A stretch of 64,000 nt of DNA, taken from positions 1-64,000 of the forward strand of contig NZ_JABXWU010000009.1 in assembly GCF_014595945.1 (NCBI RefSeq), in the 5' to 3' direction. The notes beneath the pieces are model-generated. The model made no database searches. It saw nothing but the letters and a program-made list of their open reading frames with translations, and had not been told where the DNA came from. Position 1 is the first letter of the stretch. Every line of letters begins with the position of its first letter. Shown here one piece after another: positions 20,138-55,494 of this stretch. This DNA comes from Alkalibacillus aidingensis (lineage in GTDB: Bacteria > Bacillota > Bacilli > Bacillales > Alkalibacillaceae). The translations under genes and the position numbers were made by a program.

Positions 20138-20812
20138 ATGATTGCATTTGATCATTTAGTCATTTATTCAAGCGACCCAGAGCAACACCAGAGTATATTT
20201 TCTTCCTTTCACAATCAAGTTGGTGTAGAAGGTGGACACCATGAAAATTGGGGGACGTTTAACTACCTAGCTTTCATGAAAAACAACAGCTACATCGAGT
20301 GGATTGGTGTTGACGACGATCAGAAAGCAAGTGAGTCAGATAACCCACTCATTCAACACACCTACTACGCTAAAGAACGGCAATTAGAAGGGCCAATTCA
20401 ATTCGCCTTAAGAGTAGAAAACCTTCAAGAGAGAATCGATTACTTTAACCAAGAAGGGATTGAATATGAAGGACCATTTCCAGGCAGCCGTAAAAAACCA
20501 GACGGGACGACTTTGGCGTGGAAAATGTTATTTCCGAAATACGACGTCACCGGAACTCCACTGCCATTTTTACTCGAGTGGAGTGGTGACGGGAATGTGC
20601 CAACAGATGAGAATCTAATTAACCCAGTTAATTTTTCAATGCTGGAACTAGGTGTACCTAACCCAGAAGAATACATTAAACAAATAGAAAGAATATATCA
20701 ATTATCACTGGGTGAAAATCTATCATTTCAACTTGAAAATGGTACTATTAAGATTACACATGGAAATCACTTAAAAGCTTCATTTGAACATATTACGTTT
20801 AAATCAAAGTAG
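20138..20812 (+). CDS. VOC/glyoxalase-like domain protein
   Basis: A 224-residue protein of the glyoxalase-like (PF13468-type) group: starts with AFDHLVIYSSDP and has the central GPFPGSRKKPDGTTLAWKMLFP motif. These proteins bind a metal or small ligand; the reaction is not known. AAAAGGAGG is well placed before the ATG. It is in an apparent operon with the flavin monooxygenase and the deacetylase. Confidence 0.8.
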   Translation: MIAFDHLVIYSSDPEQHQSIFSSFHNQVGVEGGHHENWGTFNYLAFMKNNSYIEWIGVDDDQKASESDNPLIQHTYYAKERQLEGPIQFALRVENLQERIDYFNQEGIEYEGPFPGSRKKPDGTTLAWKMLFPKYDVTGTPLPFLLEWSGDGNVPTDENLINPVNFSMLELGVPNPEEYIKQIERIYQLSLGENLSFQLENGTIKITHGNHLKASFEHITFKSK

Positions 20813-20819
20813 GGATTGT

Positions 20820-21683
20820 ATGAAATTTAATTTACGCTTTACCGTAATCATCGCACTAATCACGATGGCAGCTTGTACTGAAGTTAATGAGGATAGGACC
20901 TTCAGTTCAAAACAGCATGACCACTTCCATTCACCCATAGCTAAACACTCCATCACTTTAGATGAGATTCATCAACAAATTCTCCACGAGATCAATCCTA
21001 CTCATTACCCTGCAACTAGTCAGGAGTGGGGTGAATTTGTAACAGGTGTTAAAACACAACTAGATACGGACGAACAAGTGATTGCACTTACTTTCGATGC
21101 TTGTGGTGGTCCTTATGGTCGAGAGGTTGATGATCAATTAGTCGATTACTTAATTGAACATGACATTGCTGCTACTTTCTTTATTAATAAGGACTGGATC
21201 GAACATAACGAGTCATTATTTCTAGAGCTAACAGACAACCCTCTTTTCCAAATTGAAAATCACGGAACTGAACATCTGCCCTTATCGATTGAGGGGCAGT
21301 CGGCATGGGGAATTGAAGGAACACAAAGTCGTAATGAAGTCATTAAAGAAGTGGTGACCAATCATCAATATATTGATCAACTCACTGGTCAAGAACCTAC
21401 CTTATTCCGATCAGGAACAGCTCACTACGATGAAGTAGCTGTTCAGATGGTTCAAGATATGGGTTTAGAAGCGGTAAACTATGATGTTTTAGGGGATGCA
21501 GGAGGCACTTTTTCTAAAGACCAAGTCGTTCATTCTCTACTTCAGGCAAAACCGGGTTCGATCGCCTTACTCCATATGAACCAACCAACTAGTGATACAG
21601 CAGAAGGGGTGATTGAAGCTATTCCTGAATTACTTGATGATGGCTTTGAGTTTGTGCAGTTACAAGATTATGAATTAAGATGA
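20820..21683 (+). CDS. Polysaccharide deacetylase-family lipoprotein
   Basis: A 287-residue lipoprotein (signal peptide ending TMAAC at residues 14-18) with a NodB-type domain. Motif 1 reads LTFDACGGPYG, motif 2 is HGTEHLP (both histidines present) and motif 3 is LFRSGTAHYD. The canonical second aspartate of TFDD, a metal ligand in NodB enzymes, is replaced by alanine. The start is ATG 20820; a frame open from 20784 would overlap the previous gene and has no site. Confidence 0.82.
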   Translation: MKFNLRFTVIIALITMAACTEVNEDRTFSSKQHDHFHSPIAKHSITLDEIHQQILHEINPTHYPATSQEWGEFVTGVKTQLDTDEQVIALTFDACGGPYGREVDDQLVDYLIEHDIAATFFINKDWIEHNESLFLELTDNPLFQIENHGTEHLPLSIEGQSAWGIEGTQSRNEVIKEVVTNHQYIDQLTGQEPTLFRSGTAHYDEVAVQMVQDMGLEAVNYDVLGDAGGTFSKDQVVHSLLQAKPGSIALLHMNQPTSDTAEGVIEAIPELLDDGFEFVQLQDYELR

Positions 21684-21716
21684 AAGCTTACACATAGGTA
21701 CAGTGTAAGCTTTTTT
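21683..21716 (+). terminator. Intrinsic terminator after the deacetylase gene
   Basis: Stem AAAGCTTACAC / GTGTAAGCTTT with a 9-base loop, ending in TTTTTT. It begins inside the stop codon region and runs straight into the first 20-bp repeat array. Confidence 0.88.
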
Positions 21717-21718
21717 AA

Positions 21719-21838
21719 TTAACCGTATTTTGTAGATTTTAACCGTAAATTTCTTGAATTAACTGTATTTTATCCAAATTAACCGTATTTCTGAAATTTT
21801 AACTGAAAACCTCAAAAATTAACCATAAAACTTATTTC
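21719..21838 (+). repeat. Array A: six 20-bp units, TTAACCGTATTT core
   Basis: TTAACC or TTAACT recurs at 21719, 21739, 21759, 21779, 21799 and 21819, an exact 20-bp spacing. The first 12 or so bases of each unit are conserved and the last 6-8 vary but remain AT-rich. The later units are more diverged. The array follows the deacetylase terminator directly and ends about 95 bp before pepF. A sister array is at 54944-55063. Confidence 0.93.
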
Positions 21839-21933: not shown

Positions 21934-23730
21934 ATGACAAAAACAAGCTATCCAATTGTTTGGGATCTCGATGTCTTCTTTAAAGGTGGAAGTGAATCAG
22001 AAGAATTGCGTCGTCACCTTGATGAAACGAAAGAACGTCTAGCTACATATGCCGATAAGCTTCAACAGTTTACCACTCCTACTTCTAGTGGACAAGCCGA
22101 TGAAGTCGCTAACTTAATTGAAGAAGGATCTGACATTTCATTTCACATTCGTCAAGCTGGTGCGTTCGTCAGTTGCCTTGAAGCACAAGACATGAGTGAT
22201 GCGAAAGCAAGTGCTTTACGTAGTGAAATCACAGAGCTATCTGCTTCTTACGGTTCTGCTTTTAACGCATTCAAGCAAAAGCTTTCAAAAGCAGAAGAAA
22301 ATGTATGGGAAGCGATCGTAAACCATGAGAAGTTAAGCGAACTTTCATTTGTTTTAAATGAGTGGCGTGACTCTGCAAAAGAACAGCTGTCAGAAGATGA
22401 AGAAGCACTCATTTCCGCTTTATCTGTTGATGGTTATCATGCTTGGGGACAAATGTATAACACGATTGTTGGTGGCATGACCGTTAACGTAACAGTTGAT
22501 GGTGAGGAAAAAGAATTATCTGTCGGACAAGCTAATAACCTCCTATCCCATGAGAACCCTGAAGTGCGTAAAGACGTTTACGAAAAACTAGAAGCCGCTT
22601 GGAAAGAAAAAGAGTCTCTTTTCGCTAATACACTAAACCATTTAGCTGGTTTCAGACTTAACACTTATAAAAAACGTGGTTGGGACAATGTGCTAAAAGA
22701 GCCACTTGATATTAACCGTATGGAGCAAGATACTCTAGATGCGATGTGGGGTGCGATTACGAAGCATAAACAGCCGTTTGTTGACTTCTTATATCGTAAA
22801 GCTGAGTTACTTGGTAAGGACAAATTAGAATGGTATGACTTAGGCGCACCGACACAGAAAAATAACCAGAAACTTTCTTATGACGAAGGAGCTAGCTTTA
22901 TCCTAAAGCATTTTGAACAGTTTAGTCCAAAAATGGCTGAGTTCTCAAAAACAGCTTTTGAGGATGCTTGGATCGAAGCAGAAGATCGCCCTGGTAAGCG
23001 CCCTGGTGGTTTCTGTACAAGCTTTCCATTAAGTGAACAGTCTCGTATTTTTATGACATATAGTGGTTCAATGTCGAACGTGGCAACACTTGCACATGAG
23101 TTAGGGCACGCTTTTCACTCCTATGCGTTAAAGCCAGTCCACCCACTTAACCGTCGTTACGCGATGAACGTGGCGGAAACAGCTTCAACCTTTGCTGAGA
23201 TGATTGTTGCGGATGCATCAGTTAAAGAAGCAGAAACAGAAGAAGATAAGATTGCGCTTTTAGAAGATAAACTACAGCGTAGCGTGGCATTCTTTATGAA
23301 CATCCACTCACGCTTTTTATTCGAAACTCGCTTCTATGAAGAGCGTAAAAATGGCTTTGTTCCAGCAAGTCGCTTAAATGAGTTAACCGACGAAGCGCAG
23401 CGTGAAGCTTACTGTGACGCCGTTAATTCAACGAGCCCAAGCTATTGGTCTAATAAATTACACTTCCATATTACAGGGGTTCCGTTTTACAACTTCCCGT
23501 ACACATTTGGTTACTTGTTCTCACTAAGCATTTATGCCAAAGCGTTAGAGGAAGGTACTAGCTATGAGGATAAATACATCGCCCTTCTTCAAGATACTGC
23601 AAGAATGTCTGTTGAAGACCTGGCGAAGAAACACTTAGATGAAGACATTACCAAAGAGTCCTTCTGGGAAAAAGGAATCGAGCTTTGCAAAAAAGATGTT
23701 GAAGAATACCTACAATTAACTAGCAAATAA
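21934..23730 (+). CDS. pepF: Oligoendopeptidase F (M3 family)
   Basis: A 598-residue zinc metallopeptidase. The M3 motif is HELGHAFHS (about residue 389) with the third ligand Glu in NVAETASTFAEM. It degrades short peptides in the cytoplasm; there is no signal peptide. The length matches the PepF family. TTAGGAGG precedes the ATG, and the gene has its own promoter region and terminator. Confidence 0.95.
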   Translation: MTKTSYPIVWDLDVFFKGGSESEELRRHLDETKERLATYADKLQQFTTPTSSGQADEVANLIEEGSDISFHIRQAGAFVSCLEAQDMSDAKASALRSEITELSASYGSAFNAFKQKLSKAEENVWEAIVNHEKLSELSFVLNEWRDSAKEQLSEDEEALISALSVDGYHAWGQMYNTIVGGMTVNVTVDGEEKELSVGQANNLLSHENPEVRKDVYEKLEAAWKEKESLFANTLNHLAGFRLNTYKKRGWDNVLKEPLDINRMEQDTLDAMWGAITKHKQPFVDFLYRKAELLGKDKLEWYDLGAPTQKNNQKLSYDEGASFILKHFEQFSPKMAEFSKTAFEDAWIEAEDRPGKRPGGFCTSFPLSEQSRIFMTYSGSMSNVATLAHELGHAFHSYALKPVHPLNRRYAMNVAETASTFAEMIVADASVKEAETEEDKIALLEDKLQRSVAFFMNIHSRFLFETRFYEERKNGFVPASRLNELTDEAQREAYCDAVNSTSPSYWSNKLHFHITGVPFYNFPYTFGYLFSLSIYAKALEEGTSYEDKYIALLQDTARMSVEDLAKKHLDEDITKESFWEKGIELCKKDVEEYLQLTSK

Positions 23731-23924: not shown

Positions 23925-24297
23925 GGATTCGGGAATAGAGACCCGTTATCTGTTCCAATTAAGTTGGTTGAGACCGAAATCTGGGAAGAGAATGCCCTTC
24001 TCTTTTCCCGGTTCACACGATTGGTAGCACCATCTGGGAATAGACTGTCGCTCTCTTTTACCACCTCAACCGATCACCAGCCCCATCCGGGAATAGACTG
24101 TCGCTCTCTTTTACCACCTCAACCGATCAGCAGCGTCATCCGGGAAAAGACTCCTCCTCTCTTTTCCCAGTTCAACCGATCATCAACTCCTTCTGGGAAA
24201 AGACCTACCTTTTTCTCTTCCCGCCTCAACCAATGACCAACGTCACCCTGGAAGAGAGACCACCCACCTCTTACCTCCCAGTTCAACTGAATCAACC
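23925..24297. repeat. Array C: about seven 53-bp hairpin units
   Basis: The anchor GGGAA(T/A/G)AGA occurs at about 23931, 23983, 24036, 24089, 24142, 24195 and 24249, a 52-54 bp spacing. Several units pair the anchor with a downstream TCTTTTCCC, for example a perfect 9-bp stem in the unit at 24142. The linker TTCAACCGATCA is conserved between hairpins. It lies between the convergent pepF and acetyltransferase genes. Frames open across it are by-products of the repeat. Confidence 0.9.
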
Positions 24298-40043: not shown

Positions 40044-40119
40044 TACTAGTATCCACACTATATATAATCAGTAGCTGACTTTATATAGCCTTTCCTTTAA
40101 ACCCGAAGGAAACGAGCTA

Positions 40120-40258
40120 AAACAACTAGGCAGGTCTCCTGGCTGAGGTTCATCGCTCCTTATCCCTTCCCGTCAGTAACTGACAGTGGTTAAATAAGTT
40201 GCTCCCCATTACAGTGGCGGGACCGCGTCGGACTTTCACCGAACTTCCCTTTTAAGTA
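40120..40258 (-). ncRNA. Cobalamin riboswitch
   Basis: On the minus strand the canonical conserved blocks occur in order: GGTGAAAGTCCGACGCGGTC, CCCGCCACTGTAA, and GCCAGGAGACCTGCC (B12 box region). It precedes btuFCD. With B12 bound, the downstream terminator should form and lower importer expression. Confidence 0.96.
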
Positions 40259-40463
40259 AACAAACAAGAATTTGTTTACACCTAATCGTTCTTATGTATT
40301 TTGTTATTAATTTTATCATACTCCTATCCGTTATTTTCGTCAATTTTTATTAATCTTCTACTTTCCAAGATAGTCATTTCAACCTATAATAGATCATGTT
40401 GCTTTTCTATTTTTTAGTAGCTTTATTGATACAAAGGAATGATATTACTTCGGAGGTGCATCT

Positions 40464-49876: not shown

Positions 49877-50514
49877 CACCTCTTGGGAGACAGCTGTGGG
49901 CTTTGAGGTGGGCGCTCTTTTCCCGGTGACACCTCTCGGACGACGGTTTCGGGCTTTGAGGTGGGCGCTCTTTTCCCGGTGACACCTCTTAACGACCATT
50001 TCGGGCTTTGAGGCGGCCTCTCTTTTCCCGGTGACACCTCTCAAATGACGAACCCGGACTTTGAGACGAGCTCTCTTTTCCCGGTGACACCTCTCAAATG
50101 ACGAACTCGGACTTTGAGACGAGCTCTCTCTTCCCGGTGACACCTCTCAAACGACCATTCCGGGCTTTGAGGCAAGCTCTCTCTTCCCGGTGACACCTCT
50201 CGGACGACCGCTCCGGGCTTTGAGGCGAGCTCTCTCTTCCCGGTGACACCTCTCAAACGACGAACCTGGGCTTTGAGACGGCCTCTCTTTTCCCGGTGAC
50301 ACCTCTCAAACGACGAACCCGGGCTTTGAGACGGCCTCTCTTTTCCCGGTGATACCTCTTAAACGACCATTCCGGGCTTTGAGGTGGCCTCTCTCTTCCC
50401 GGTGACACCTCTCAAACGACCGCTCCGGGCTTTGAGGCAAGCTCTCTCTTCCGGTGACACCTCTCAAATGACGAACCCGGGCTTTGAGACGAGCTCTCTC
50501 TTCCCGGTGACACC
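49877..50514. repeat. Array D: twelve 53-bp hairpin units
   Basis: CCCGGTGACACCTC begins at 49922, 49975, 50027, 50080, 50133, 50186, 50239, 50292, 50345, 50398, about 50450 and 50503, spaced 52-53 bp. Each unit also has CCGGGCTTTGAGG and CTCTCTCTT. CCGGG can pair with the next CCCGG across about 21 bases. Variant arms TCGGG and CTGGG keep pairing by G-U. It lies between the convergent GMC and csp genes. Frames open across it are by-products. Confidence 0.95.
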
Positions 50515-50556: not shown

Positions 50557-50593
50557 AAAAAGCGTGTGCGGCATGAAGCCGCACACGCTTTTT
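50557..50593 (-). terminator. Intrinsic terminator after the cold shock gene
   Basis: A 16-bp stem (AAAAAGCGTGTGCGGC and GCCGCACACGCTTTTT) with a 5-base loop. Confidence 0.92.
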
Positions 50594-50612
50594 AATCGTT
50601 TATGGTCGTTTA

Positions 50613-50810
50613 TTACTGAGCAACTACGTTAGCTGCTTGTGGTCCACGATCGCCTTCAACGATTTCAAATTCAACAGTTTGACCTTCTTCTAAAGTCTTG
50701 AAGCCTTCTGCTTGAATCGCTGAGAAGTGAACGAATACATCGTCGCCATCTTGACGCTCGATGAAACCGAAACCTTTTTCTGAGTTAAACCATTTTACTG
50801 TACCTGTCAT
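50613..50810 (-). CDS. Cold shock protein
   Basis: A 65-residue CspA/CspB-type OB fold with RNP1 KGFGFIE and RNP2 DVFVHFSAI, binding single-stranded nucleic acid. AAGGAGGTCATTTCA directly precedes the ATG. The promoter lies about 110 bases upstream, giving a long leader as is usual for cold-shock mRNAs. Close to CspD/CspC of Bacillus; which one cannot be told. Confidence 0.96.
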
Positions 50811-50920
50811 TGAAATGACCTCCTTAAAATTACATTAAAACAATTGAATCTTGTTACTTGTAGACTTCTTTAAGAGAGGCCATTCAGTAAACATCGATAT
50901 CAATCATTCGTACATTTATA

Positions 50921-50949
50921 ACTTTACCCTTTTTCACAAAAAAATGCAA
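50921..50949 (-). promoter_or_regulatory. Promoter of the cold shock gene
   Basis: Minus-strand TTGCAT (50949-50944) and TAAAGT (50926-50921), spacer 17. It implies a 5' leader of about 100 bases. Confidence 0.55.
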
Positions 50950-51860: not shown

Positions 51861-52545
51861 ATTTTTTTAGCATCAGTAGCCACATAAATGATAAAGCCTG
51901 ACGAAGTTCCTCTGATAAACTGTCTAGATGTTGTTGATGAACACCTTGCTTATAAACACCTTCTGAACCGACAACGGATAGCCCCAATTCTCCTGCTAAC
52001 TTCTGGAATTCCCATGGCATCATGGTATTACAAATCACATCTTCACCATAAATTCTGCGATAGCTATTTGCTCGTGGGCCAGCTGTTGGTCCTAAGATTC
52101 CAAAGCACATATACCCACCTGGCTTAACCAATCTCATTAATTCTTTTAAAGCATTCGCTGGTGTCTCAGTCCACTCTATTGAATTAATCGCCATAAGATG
52201 GTCAAATTCACCGTCTTTAAAAGCAAGGTTCATCATATCCCCTTGCTGAAAATTTAATTGTTCCATTTCACCAGAGGCCCGTTCTTGGCATAGCGCGATC
52301 ATTTCTTCTGACAAATCAACACCAGTTACATAATAACCTGCCTGCCATAGCTTATAAGAACCATAACCATCGCCACACCCTAAATCTAAAACACGTTCAC
52401 CTTTTGGAACATACTTTTCAAAAAAAGGAATAATCGTTTTCCGGCTTCCTTCATCCCACATCTGACGGCTATTAGCATGCCAAAAAGAAGCCTTATCATT
52501 CCACTGCTTTTGCGCCTCGACATGCCACTTCGATTGATTAGTCAT
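51859..52545 (-). CDS. Class I SAM-dependent methyltransferase
   Basis: A 228-residue methyltransferase with VLDLGCGDGYGSYKLW (motif I), GVDLSEEMI and HLMAINSIEWTE. The substrate is unknown. The start is ATG 52545 (MTNQSKW), after AAAGGGGTG; the frame is open to 52575. It is the last gene of a three-gene operon with the DUF4269 and NIPSNAP genes. Confidence 0.86.
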   Translation of the reverse strand: MTNQSKWHVEAQKQWNDKASFWHANSRQMWDEGSRKTIIPFFEKYVPKGERVLDLGCGDGYGSYKLWQAGYYVTGVDLSEEMIALCQERASGEMEQLNFQQGDMMNLAFKDGEFDHLMAINSIEWTETPANALKELMRLVKPGGYMCFGILGPTAGPRANSYRRIYGEDVICNTMMPWEFQKLAGELGLSVVGSEGVYKQGVHQQHLDSLSEELRQALSFMWLLMLKK

Positions 52546-53663: not shown

Positions 53664-54890
53664 ATGTTAACGAGCAATCAACAAGAGATTATCAAATCAA
53701 CGGCTCCTGTACTAAGAGAATATGGTACAGACATTACAACTAGATTCTACAATCTACTATTCACCAATAATCCTGAACTATTAAACATCTTTAACCAAGC
53801 TAATCAAAAACAAGGAAAGCAACAAAGAGCTTTGGCTAATTCAATTATTGCTGCTGCTGAAAACATTGAGCAATTAGAGCAAATCATGCCTGTGGTTGAA
53901 CAAATTGCTCATAAACACCGTAGTATCGGGATCTTACCAGAGCACTATCCACTAGTCGGTGAAAACTTATTACAAGCAATTAAGGATGTACTTGGAGACA
54001 ATGCAACTGATGAGATTTTGAATGCTTGGGAAGCCGCATACAGTATCATTGCCGACATCTTTATCCAAGTTGAACAGAACATGTATCAGCAAGCAGAAGA
54101 GCAAGAAAATGGTTGGCAAGGTTACAAACCATTTTATATTGACCAAATTGTTATAGAAAGTGATGTCATTACGTCCTTTTATTTAAAGCCAGTAGACCAA
54201 AAGCCACTGCCAACCTTTGAACCTGGACAATACATTAGCGTACAATTATCCATCCCAGGTGAAACTTATCAACATGTGCGTCAATATAGCTTATCAGACC
54301 AACCAAACCAGGAGTACTATCGTATAAGCATTAAGCGTGAAGATGAAAATGATCCTAATGGTGTTGTATCTAATTATTTACACCATCAAGCAAAAGAAGG
54401 CGATGAGGTTCCGATTACGGTACCAGCAGGTGATTTCACTGTTGATTTATCAGATCAACAACCACTTGTCCTGATTAGTGGTGGCGTTGGGATCACACCC
54501 ATGTTAAGTATGCTGAAGACTGTAACTGAAAAGCAACCTGAGCGAGAAGTAACTTTTATCCACGCAGCTAGAAATAGTGATGTTCATGCATTTAGTCAAG
54601 AGCTCTCAGCAATTGCAAAGGAAAATAATCAAGTACGCCTGTTAACTGTTTACTCCGATCCAACTGCTAATGACCGGGAACAAAAGTTATTTGACTATGA
54701 AGGGAAGATATCACTAGATTGGTTAAAACAAGAGCTAACAAGTTCAAACCAAGTATTCTATTTCTGTGGACCAAATACTTTCATGCAAACCATTCATGAA
54801 TCTTTAACAGAATGGGGTACACCTGAAGACCAGATTCACTTTGAATTTTTCGGGCCAAAACAAGAGTTAAAAAGTAAGACATTAGTATAA
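53664..54890 (+). CDS. hmp: Flavohemoprotein, nitric oxide dioxygenase
   Basis: A 408-residue protein: globin domain (1-140) with haem ligand His85 and distal Tyr29 and Gln53; then an FAD domain (about 150-255, with RQYSLSD) and an NAD domain (about 265-400, with LISGGVGITPMLSML and FYFCGPNTFM). It turns NO into nitrate. It has a GGAGGG ribosome site, an FNR-type box and its own terminator. Confidence 0.96.
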   Translation: MLTSNQQEIIKSTAPVLREYGTDITTRFYNLLFTNNPELLNIFNQANQKQGKQQRALANSIIAAAENIEQLEQIMPVVEQIAHKHRSIGILPEHYPLVGENLLQAIKDVLGDNATDEILNAWEAAYSIIADIFIQVEQNMYQQAEEQENGWQGYKPFYIDQIVIESDVITSFYLKPVDQKPLPTFEPGQYISVQLSIPGETYQHVRQYSLSDQPNQEYYRISIKREDENDPNGVVSNYLHHQAKEGDEVPITVPAGDFTVDLSDQQPLVLISGGVGITPMLSMLKTVTEKQPEREVTFIHAARNSDVHAFSQELSAIAKENNQVRLLTVYSDPTANDREQKLFDYEGKISLDWLKQELTSSNQVFYFCGPNTFMQTIHESLTEWGTPEDQIHFEFFGPKQELKSKTLV

Positions 54891-54895
54891 AAAAT

Positions 54896-54940
54896 AAGCA
54901 TCGGACTTTCGAGATAACTTCTCGAGTCTGATGCTTTTTT
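54896..54940 (+). terminator. Intrinsic terminator after hmp
   Basis: Stem AAGCATCGGACTTTCGAGA / TCTCGAGTCTGATGCTT with some mismatches, followed by TTTTTT. It runs directly into the second 20-bp array. Confidence 0.87.
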
Positions 54941-54943
54941 CAA

Positions 54944-55063
54944 TTAACCGTATTTTTGATATTTTAACTGTATTTCTCAGAATTTAACCGTATTCCTAAG
55001 AATTTAACCGTAAATCTAAAAAATTAACCGTATTTCCAATAATTTAACCGTATTTCTCACCCG
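54944..55063 (+). repeat. Array B: six 20-bp units, TTAACCGTATTT core
   Basis: TTAACCG (one TTAACTG) starts at 54944, 54964, 54984, 55004, 55024 and 55044, exactly 20 bp apart. The consensus TTAACCGTATTTCTnAnAAT is nearly the same as array A at 21719, in the same orientation, copy number and position right after a terminator. It lies between the convergent hmp and arsC genes. Confidence 0.95.
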
Positions 55064-55071
55064 AGAAAAGT

Positions 55072-55494
55072 TTACCTCTTCTCTTCACGAAGCTTTTCAA
55101 TTCGGTGCTTAATGTCATCACGCACTTCACGAAATACTTGATTTACCTCTTCTTCTGTACCTTCTGCTTTGGCAGGGTCAAATAAGCCCCAATGTTCAGT
55201 TTTAACACCAGATGGAATCACTGGACAATTCTCTTTTGCATCACCACATAATGTCACAACCATCTTAGCTGAATTTAACAAATCACGGTCAATAACCTCT
55301 GATTGCTGATCTGTAATATCAATATCCATCTCGCGCATCATTTCAACAGCTTTTGGATTAACACCATGTGCTTCAATGCCCGCACTATGAACGTCCCACT
55401 CATCACCCAAGATTTGCTTTCCTAACCCTTCTGCCATTTGACTACGACAAGAGTTTCCAGTACACAAGAAATACAATATTGGTTTATTAAACAT
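55072..55494 (-). CDS. arsC: Thioredoxin-coupled arsenate reductase
   Basis: A 140-residue low-molecular-weight phosphatase-type ArsC. The P-loop is CTGNSCRS (Cys11) and the redox pair is Cys83 and Cys90 in [10 protein letters not shown], as in the Bacillus/Staphylococcus enzyme. It reduces arsenate to arsenite for export. It is the last gene of the ars operon. Confidence 0.95.

Follow-up and report, generated by a model that had tools for sequence, protein, structure and literature searches.

The 64,000-nucleotide stretch of Alkalibacillus aidingensis DNA analysed here (the window) carries two arrays of 20-bp direct repeats, A and B, which raise the question of what kind of element they are and what might read them. 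Bacillus tandem repeats of 20-21 nt, constant in size and variable in sequence, have been described before (Subirana and Messeguer 2021, PMC8161180). There they are mostly non-coding, form species-specific sequence families with several families per genome, and are noted to correspond to two helix turns, with no obvious function; small RNAs or nucleoid proteins are suggested. The present arrays share with those repeats a run of at least four regular 20-21-nt units and the division into species-specific families of equal length, and go beyond them in that the units usually number six, the core is under selection, solo copies of a single dialect occur and a partner gene is likely.

Two phased arrays in the window

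The arrays, the hairpins that precede them and the neighbouring genes (these last for context only) are as follows:

54942..55059, + strand: array B, AA and then six TTAACYGTAWWTnnnnnnWW units at an exact 20-bp pitch
21717..21838, + strand: array A, the same element as array B, with the final two units degenerate
54896..54940, + strand: terminator-like hairpin and T run, 3' of the flavohemoprotein gene; array B begins one base later
21684..21716, + strand: terminator-like hairpin and T run, 3' of the polysaccharide deacetylase gene; array A follows directly
53664..54890, + strand: flavohemoprotein (globin, FAD and NAD domains), left neighbour of array B
55072..55494, - strand: LMWPc-family protein, convergent right neighbour of array B
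20784..21683, + strand: polysaccharide deacetylase, left neighbour of array A
21934..23730, + strand: oligopeptidase F (peptidase M3), right neighbour of array A

The LMWPc-family gene we take to be of the arsenate-reductase type, from general knowledge of the family and an ArsB neighbour. The first-pass annotation had described array B as six exactly spaced 20-bp units sharing strand and consensus with array A, and the sequence confirms this: its six TTAACYGTA units start at 54944, 54964, 54984, 55004, 55024 and 55044, all on one strand (+), and those of array A, on the same strand, at 21719, 21739, 21759, 21779, 21799 and 21819, units 5 and 6 being worn (TTAACTGAAAAC and TTAACCATAAAA). Against profile R1, for whose building both arrays were used along with six others, array B scored E = 2.0e-25 and array A E = 4.2e-24. 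The nine-letter core AATTAACCG occurs four times in the window, a count reached by none of 100 shuffles; together with the lack of any match in a backwards control, this excludes chance as the source of the arrays.

The annotation had also called the two junctions almost the same. A CTTTTTT-type run does precede both, but the junctions are not identical: CTTTTTT abuts AATTAACCG at array A, and CTTTTTTC abuts it at array B, with one extra base. The proposal that array and terminator end are placed together is not supported, since junction and orientation vary among the ten arrays of this dialect in the genome. The same ten arrays bear out a dispersed element that lies in unrelated operons, keeps its pitch and mostly has six units, so that a dispersed, phased element remains of the original reading and its coupling to the terminator end does not.

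Two 53-bp tandem arrays also lie in the window (49898-50514, 11.7 copies; 24026-24204, 3.4 copies) and resemble a published 52-nt Bacillus repeat class. Rfam matches over threshold in the window are a cobalamin riboswitch (40112-40300), nine tRNA genes (84-1063) and a cspA thermoregulator (50559-50948).

Ten arrays of one dialect in the genome

Across the whole genome (G000), the pair pattern of arrays A and B gave 46 matches, which resolve into ten arrays on six contigs, and its backwards control gave none; profile R1, built from eight of these arrays, recovered all ten, the next match having E = 0.17. By reading, nine arrays consist of six units and one (C22b) of five. Eight keep exact 20-bp steps across six units; in array C5 two of the steps measure 21 bp. 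Tabulation covered 47 of the 59 units (those left out being mostly last units and three of C5, worn units among them). Among these 47, T1, T2, A3, A4, C5 and A9 are invariant, G7 and T8 changed once each, and column 15 holds 0.05 bits, which indicates nearly unconstrained drift of the spacers, but not of the core, within the tabulated set.

All ten arrays are intergenic and sit at the 3' end of a gene, six running with the upstream gene and four against it, and this variable orientation points to a role at the level of DNA rather than of RNA read-through. In six of the ten (A, B, C12, C24, C5 and C22b, the last two in reverse orientation), by reading, no more than about 15 bp separate the array from a terminator-like hairpin; C22d starts on a stop codon, the hairpin of C22c is about 45 bp away, and none is close to C19 or C22a. 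Unit positions are weakly alike among nine of the arrays (p = 0.0055). By reading, the arrays are direct repeats and lack the terminal inverted repeats of MITEs and insertion sequences, and as asymmetric direct repeats they also differ from the single palindromic site of the parS/Noc kind. A replication signal was rejected, orientation following the G-rich strand in most G001/G003 contigs and the C-rich strand in seven of the ten arrays of the present genome; so were origin or terminus sites, the ten arrays lying on neither the parS contig nor the contig with a dif-like site (3 mismatches). Contig C12 further carries a worn six-unit array of the GCGAA type (239170-239283), probably a fossil of an older dialect.

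Empty sites in relatives and selection on the core

The pair pattern was absent from five same-genus genomes (G001-G005). By reading, no array lies between hmp and arsC in any of the three that have those neighbours (G003, G004, G005); G001 has no hmp match, and G002 has another neighbour there. Upstream of pepF there is likewise no array in the five relatives, in all of which the left neighbour differs. These array-free sites are too diverged for target-site duplication to be judged. Gradually diverged AT-rich sequence, which the first-pass annotation had held up as the contrary picture, was not seen: the sites are empty, and arrays of another dialect stand elsewhere. These were met as weak gapless matches of profile R1 in G001-G003 and follow TTARGCGAAAWTC, a pattern with 47 pair matches in G001, 45 in G003, 6 in G002 and 3 in G013, and none in the remaining 18 genomes of the family, the present one included. 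Among 38 arrays from these four genomes, 22 measure 119-121 bp, equal to six units, and the rest score as 4, 5 or 7 units under the strict pattern.

Judged from flanking sequence, G003 has a counterpart for 13 of 16 G001 arrays and G002 for two, which allowed changes to be counted column by column. In the 13 orthologous G001/G003 pairs, changes amounted to 9/470 in the core, 19/135 at the two A/G positions, 82/535 in spacer columns 1-8 and 8/190 in columns 9-11, the core changing about eight times more slowly than the spacers (p = 3.6e-15 against columns 1-8). With core changes doubled, which allows for the core having been required in one sequence, p was 3.5e-10. The flanks of 11 pairs changed at 698 of 9426 positions (7.4%), two pairs with badly aligned flanks being kept for core and spacer and dropped here; the core of those 11 (8/393) was slower than the flanks (p = 5.5e-6), and spacers were faster than these partly coding flanks (p = 2.2e-9). 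The array core is under purifying selection, and since it is still so in old solo copies, something probably still reads solo arrays.

Dialects across the order and along the chromosome

Profile R2, built from 19 arrays of relatives and used at E <= 1e-4, matched 37 of 120 sampled genomes of the order (22 of 73 genera), a count that includes at least one false positive, since the G078 match (L263) is an unrelated simple repeat. One locus from each of 22 matching genomes gave a common frame close to (T,W,W)NN-GCG-AAAWT at a 20-21-bp pitch, whose middle letters vary by genus: TATCAGCG, TATGAGCG, TATGCGCG, TATCCGCG, TATTGGCG, TACGGGCG, TTTGTGCG and TTTTGAGCG. G066 carries 24 copies of a sharply bounded element of about 155 bp whose 3' hairpin tail is conserved; such tails are clear in G066-type and most G133 elements, and not in all genomes. 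In the elements of G066, G103 and G132, and of G133 and G104, the last unit is mostly GCGAAC and forms the start of a hairpin tail that is specific to the genus (ACGTGT..ACACGT; CTGGAAA..TTTCCAG). Contig C17 of G001 (L210-L214; for example at 51970, 53337 and 54548) has composite elements in which a second dialect, WTCCGGCGAAA, stands about 50 bp behind type-1 arrays, and the short ORFs that run through them look like artefacts. Arrays also lie in or beside putative histidine-utilisation genes (G001 C1:131045, G003 C75:10532, G066 near 753-757 kb), an assignment that spans two families of the order and was put to a family test for the G066 lyase only.

Two of three complete genomes are poor in arrays towards the terminus. 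The half opposite base 1 holds 5 of 25 arrays in G066 (p = 0.002) and 8 of 32 in G133 (p = 0.0035), p values that are inflated by the clustering of arrays; G119 shows no such gap, with 6 of its 10 arrays in that half (p = 0.83) and several near the GC-skew switch. With limits set after the data had been viewed, none of the 25 G066 arrays falls in C1 1.49-3.00 Mb, around the skew switch, and 3 of the 32 G133 arrays fall in C1 1.1-3.3 Mb.

A scan of genome contigs found at least 115 stretches with the pair pattern of the present genome, mostly in distant organisms and some of them other tandem repeats. In viral contigs, eight stretches with that pattern look like chance or other repeats. Array B had no match in plasmids, and the G066 element none in plasmids, phages or viral contigs, on which ground a plasmid or phage origin was rejected.

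Most zinc-ribbon NERD genes lie beside arrays

The genes beside arrays of different genomes were ordinary metabolic genes and one recurring family of interest, NERD (PF08378), first seen next to arrays in G000, G001/G003 and G066, the neighbourhoods from which the NERD hypothesis arose. The families listed beside arrays of three or more genome groups included no recombinase or transposase, and no replication initiator recurred beside the arrays compared. A NERD search of 18 genomes added NERD genes adjoining arrays in G133, G013 and G045.

If NERD genes are the partners, arrays of unforeseen dialect were to be expected beside them, and for these we used a dialect-free detector of six-unit arrays at 20/21-bp pitch. 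It had no match in 925 kb of block-shuffled DNA and 14 in 388 kb of contigs of the present genome, including all ten known arrays; two of the others match the dialects of other NERD genes of that genome, one is unassigned and one looks coding. Twelve of 20 scanned NERD neighbourhoods (G004, G005, G002, G000, G119 and G040) gave matches, one of which (L403) lies more than 1 kb from the NERD gene and looks like a coding repeat. Nineteen loci of G066 and G133 and one of G013 were added later.

In the resulting table, an array lay within 450 bp of 23 of 31 zinc-ribbon NERD genes (those whose products have a Cys4 pattern followed by a C-terminal part) versus 2 of 13 other NERD genes, the class being set by a crude cysteine pattern that excluded a G013 protein though it aligns over its full length. 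Without the four loci chosen for their known arrays (L427, L212a, L212b and L240b) the counts were 21/29 versus 0/11 (p = 3.3e-5), eight of the 29 having no detected array, and with L368 and L426 removed as well, 19 of 27 zinc-ribbon genes retained one (p = 1.3e-4). Measured against the 18-genome search, the table is complete for G066, G133, G002, G004 and G005, and covers 7/8 NERD genes of G000 (C22:57541 omitted), 1/2 of G040, 2/5 of G001, 1/5 of G003 and 1/7 of G013. As a control, ordinary genes of at least 200 aa had an array nearby in 2/119 cases in G066 (11 of 12 stretches not chosen at arrays; the twelfth, at base 1, holds ribosomal RNA and was omitted), 4/102 in G133 (nine stretches), 0/202 in G119 and 16/242 on contigs of the present genome; with all stretches kept, many of them chosen at arrays, the figures were 26/221 for G066 and 28/231 for G133.

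Around the 23 NERD genes the array is upstream only in 8, downstream only in 7 and on both sides in 8 (one doubtful), a mixture that does not fit plain autoregulation and does fit the ends of a unit. G119 has 10 arrays, yet one weak NERD gene with no array near it. The G001 NERD gene C17:53665 is bracketed by type-1 arrays, and its product has no zinc-ribbon part; the type-1 dialect was tied to none of the zinc-ribbon NERD genes.

A nuclease-like protein with a predicted winged helix

The partner protein matches NERD (PF08378) over the Pfam cut-off. An alignment of 22 proteins (369 columns) has E59, D92, K107 and four cysteines invariant and E105 in 90% or more, and by their pattern E59, D92, E105 and K107 would be the catalytic residues of a PD-(D/E)XK-type nuclease. 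In an AlphaFold2 model (pLDDT 91), the C-terminal 60 residues are predicted to form a winged helix like those of AntR (Z 7.5, 1.8 A over 59 residues), CadC (Z 7.0-7.1, about 60 residues) and SmtB, and the N-terminal nuclease part resembles Cdn1/Can2 and McrC (Z 8.0-8.8); Z values of 6-9 are middling for a common fold, and indicate fold and not function. Foldseek returned nothing below E = 0.001, a PDB sequence search weak zinc-ribbon matches only, and TnsA was not among the fold matches listed, which is evidence neither way. Five proteins compared with defence libraries matched PglW, MkoA and MAD6 weakly, through the NERD part only and far below NCBIfam cut-offs.

The dialect follows the C-terminal part of the protein

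For 23 NERD-side arrays, taking the best-scoring array of each gene, motif similarity correlated at rho 0.31 (Mantel p = 0.0004) with similarity of the part behind the zinc ribbon and, more weakly, with that of the NERD part (rho 0.16, p = 0.026); the NERD correlation disappears (-0.02) once C-terminal similarity is controlled for. Two close ortholog pairs raise the C-terminal correlation, which drops to rho 0.23 (p = 0.005) when L392, L212 and L405 are left out. Two arrays from the same genome resemble each other no more than two from different genomes (0.27 vs 0.29). The NERD proteins L368, L427 and L410 have a common 'SRH' in the presumed recognition helix, and their array dialects contain GCTC/GAGC, which may hint at a recognition code.

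Scattered arrays, too, tend to resemble a NERD-side dialect of their own genome, which was the best match for 11/13 in G000, 18/24 in G066 and 17/21 in G133. Nine of the 11 in G000, A and B among them, match array C22:58385, B clearly (0.80) and A barely (0.53 vs 0.51 for the next). This array overlaps the stop codon of NERD gene C22:57541-58386 (L035:7842-8687), which looks broken, with one in-frame TAA inside the NERD domain; the cognate protein may thus be lost in this strain, or the assembly wrong there. Matching arrays accompany NERD genes on other contigs and in relatives, and these genes are the likely partner of the arrays.

Discussion

Since arrays stand beside one class of NERD gene in many dialects, we suggest the repeats as predicted binding sites of that protein, and arrays A and B are probably solo copies of the multi-site recognition element of a NERD/zinc-ribbon/winged-helix nuclease-like family. 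Most of these genes carry an array dialect of their own just before them, just after them or on both sides, and solo arrays in that dialect are dispersed through the genome concerned, many of them just past the end of a gene. The winged helix would read the array core, and proteins bound at six sites side by side, on nearly one helix face, would bring six nuclease domains together. A gene with its flanking arrays would be the full unit, and solo arrays either spread copies or left-over ends, much as LTRs or MITEs are for other elements.

What such a system is for is a separate matter. Here we lean, less firmly, towards a selfish, dispersing element, though a pure parasite would not be expected to have its old solo copies under selection; the next candidates are a defence nuclease anchored at the arrays and a part in organising the chromosome. 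We also tentatively consider that each NERD nuclease is tied to its own few-letter dialect and that solo arrays are selected anchors or self-markers across the chromosome; dialect and winged helix would then change together, giving many insulated protein-array pairs per genome, possibly for defence or the control of selfish DNA.

The same observations have been weighed against readings that need no NERD protein. A passive dispersed repeat of the BOX, STAR or MITE kind would build up at gene ends, where an insertion is nearly harmless, with NERD genes merely occupying the same permissive places; the 24 sharp-ended, hairpin-tailed copies in G066, the empty A and B sites in relatives and the weak likeness of unit positions in nine arrays all suit it. 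It is nonetheless unlikely, for the core is under strong purifying selection at fixed orthologous places, different NERD genes have different dialects, the dialect tracks the C-terminal part of the protein, and other NERD classes go without arrays. The deficit of arrays in the opposite half of G066 and G133, and the array-free G066 region around its skew switch, would be explained by chromosome-organising or nucleoid-occlusion-like sites that are read by a host protein and kept out of the terminus; with most G119 arrays in that very half, inflated p values, no array of the present genome on a contig with parS or a dif-like site, and the linkage to NERD genes left unexplained, we regard this as quite unlikely.

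That the array acts as RNA, being transcribed into a small RNA, a terminator aid or a protein-binding RNA, is in our judgement very unlikely. Arrays do follow gene ends and often abut terminator-like hairpins, and Subirana and Messeguer (PMC8161180) propose transcription of such repeats, but the arrays may point either way with respect to the upstream gene, A/T swaps in the core fit a reading of DNA, and no Rfam family matched at the arrays in the six sources scanned, by which a known RNA was rejected.

Recognition arrays of a NERD-domain protein would have several partial parallels. In iteron arrays of plasmid origins, copies of one protein sit next to each other on direct repeats spaced by about two helix turns, and Tn7-type elements have repeats at their ends; unlike either, the present arrays include scattered solo copies, and neither a replication initiator nor a transposase recurs beside those compared. 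STAR elements of Staphylococcus (PMC3532100) are intergenic interspersed direct repeats whose loci differ by species and whose function is unknown. The present arrays are likewise intergenic direct repeats at other loci in each species, but STAR has a 14-bp GC-rich core, T(G/A/T)TGTTG(G/T)GGCCC(C/A), with at least 40 bp between repeats, which contrasts with their AT-rich core of about 12 bp (TTAACYGTA), 20-bp pitch, usually six units and many dialects. Stoperators of cluster A mycobacteriophages are many asymmetric sites per genome read by one helix-turn-helix protein, their most conserved positions matching protein contacts (PMC9283540); these are single 13-bp phage sites for a repressor, and the present arrays are phased, chromosomal and paired with a NERD-domain protein.

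The class of 20-21-nt repeats is thus already published, and the link to NERD is new as far as literature searches reach: the words 'nuclease' and 'NERD' do not occur in the main text of PMC8161180, and no published link of such repeats to NERD proteins was found in a literature consisting mostly of papers outside subscription. Repeats of constant 20-21-nt length and ever-changing sequence have been called enigmatic in many bacteria, and linking them to one protein class with a readable DNA-binding domain opens the way to a direct binding test. If the link is true, it would expose widespread nuclease-array pairs whose DNA recognition specificities form a library supplied by nature; the pairs may work in defence, for selfish DNA or in organising the chromosome.
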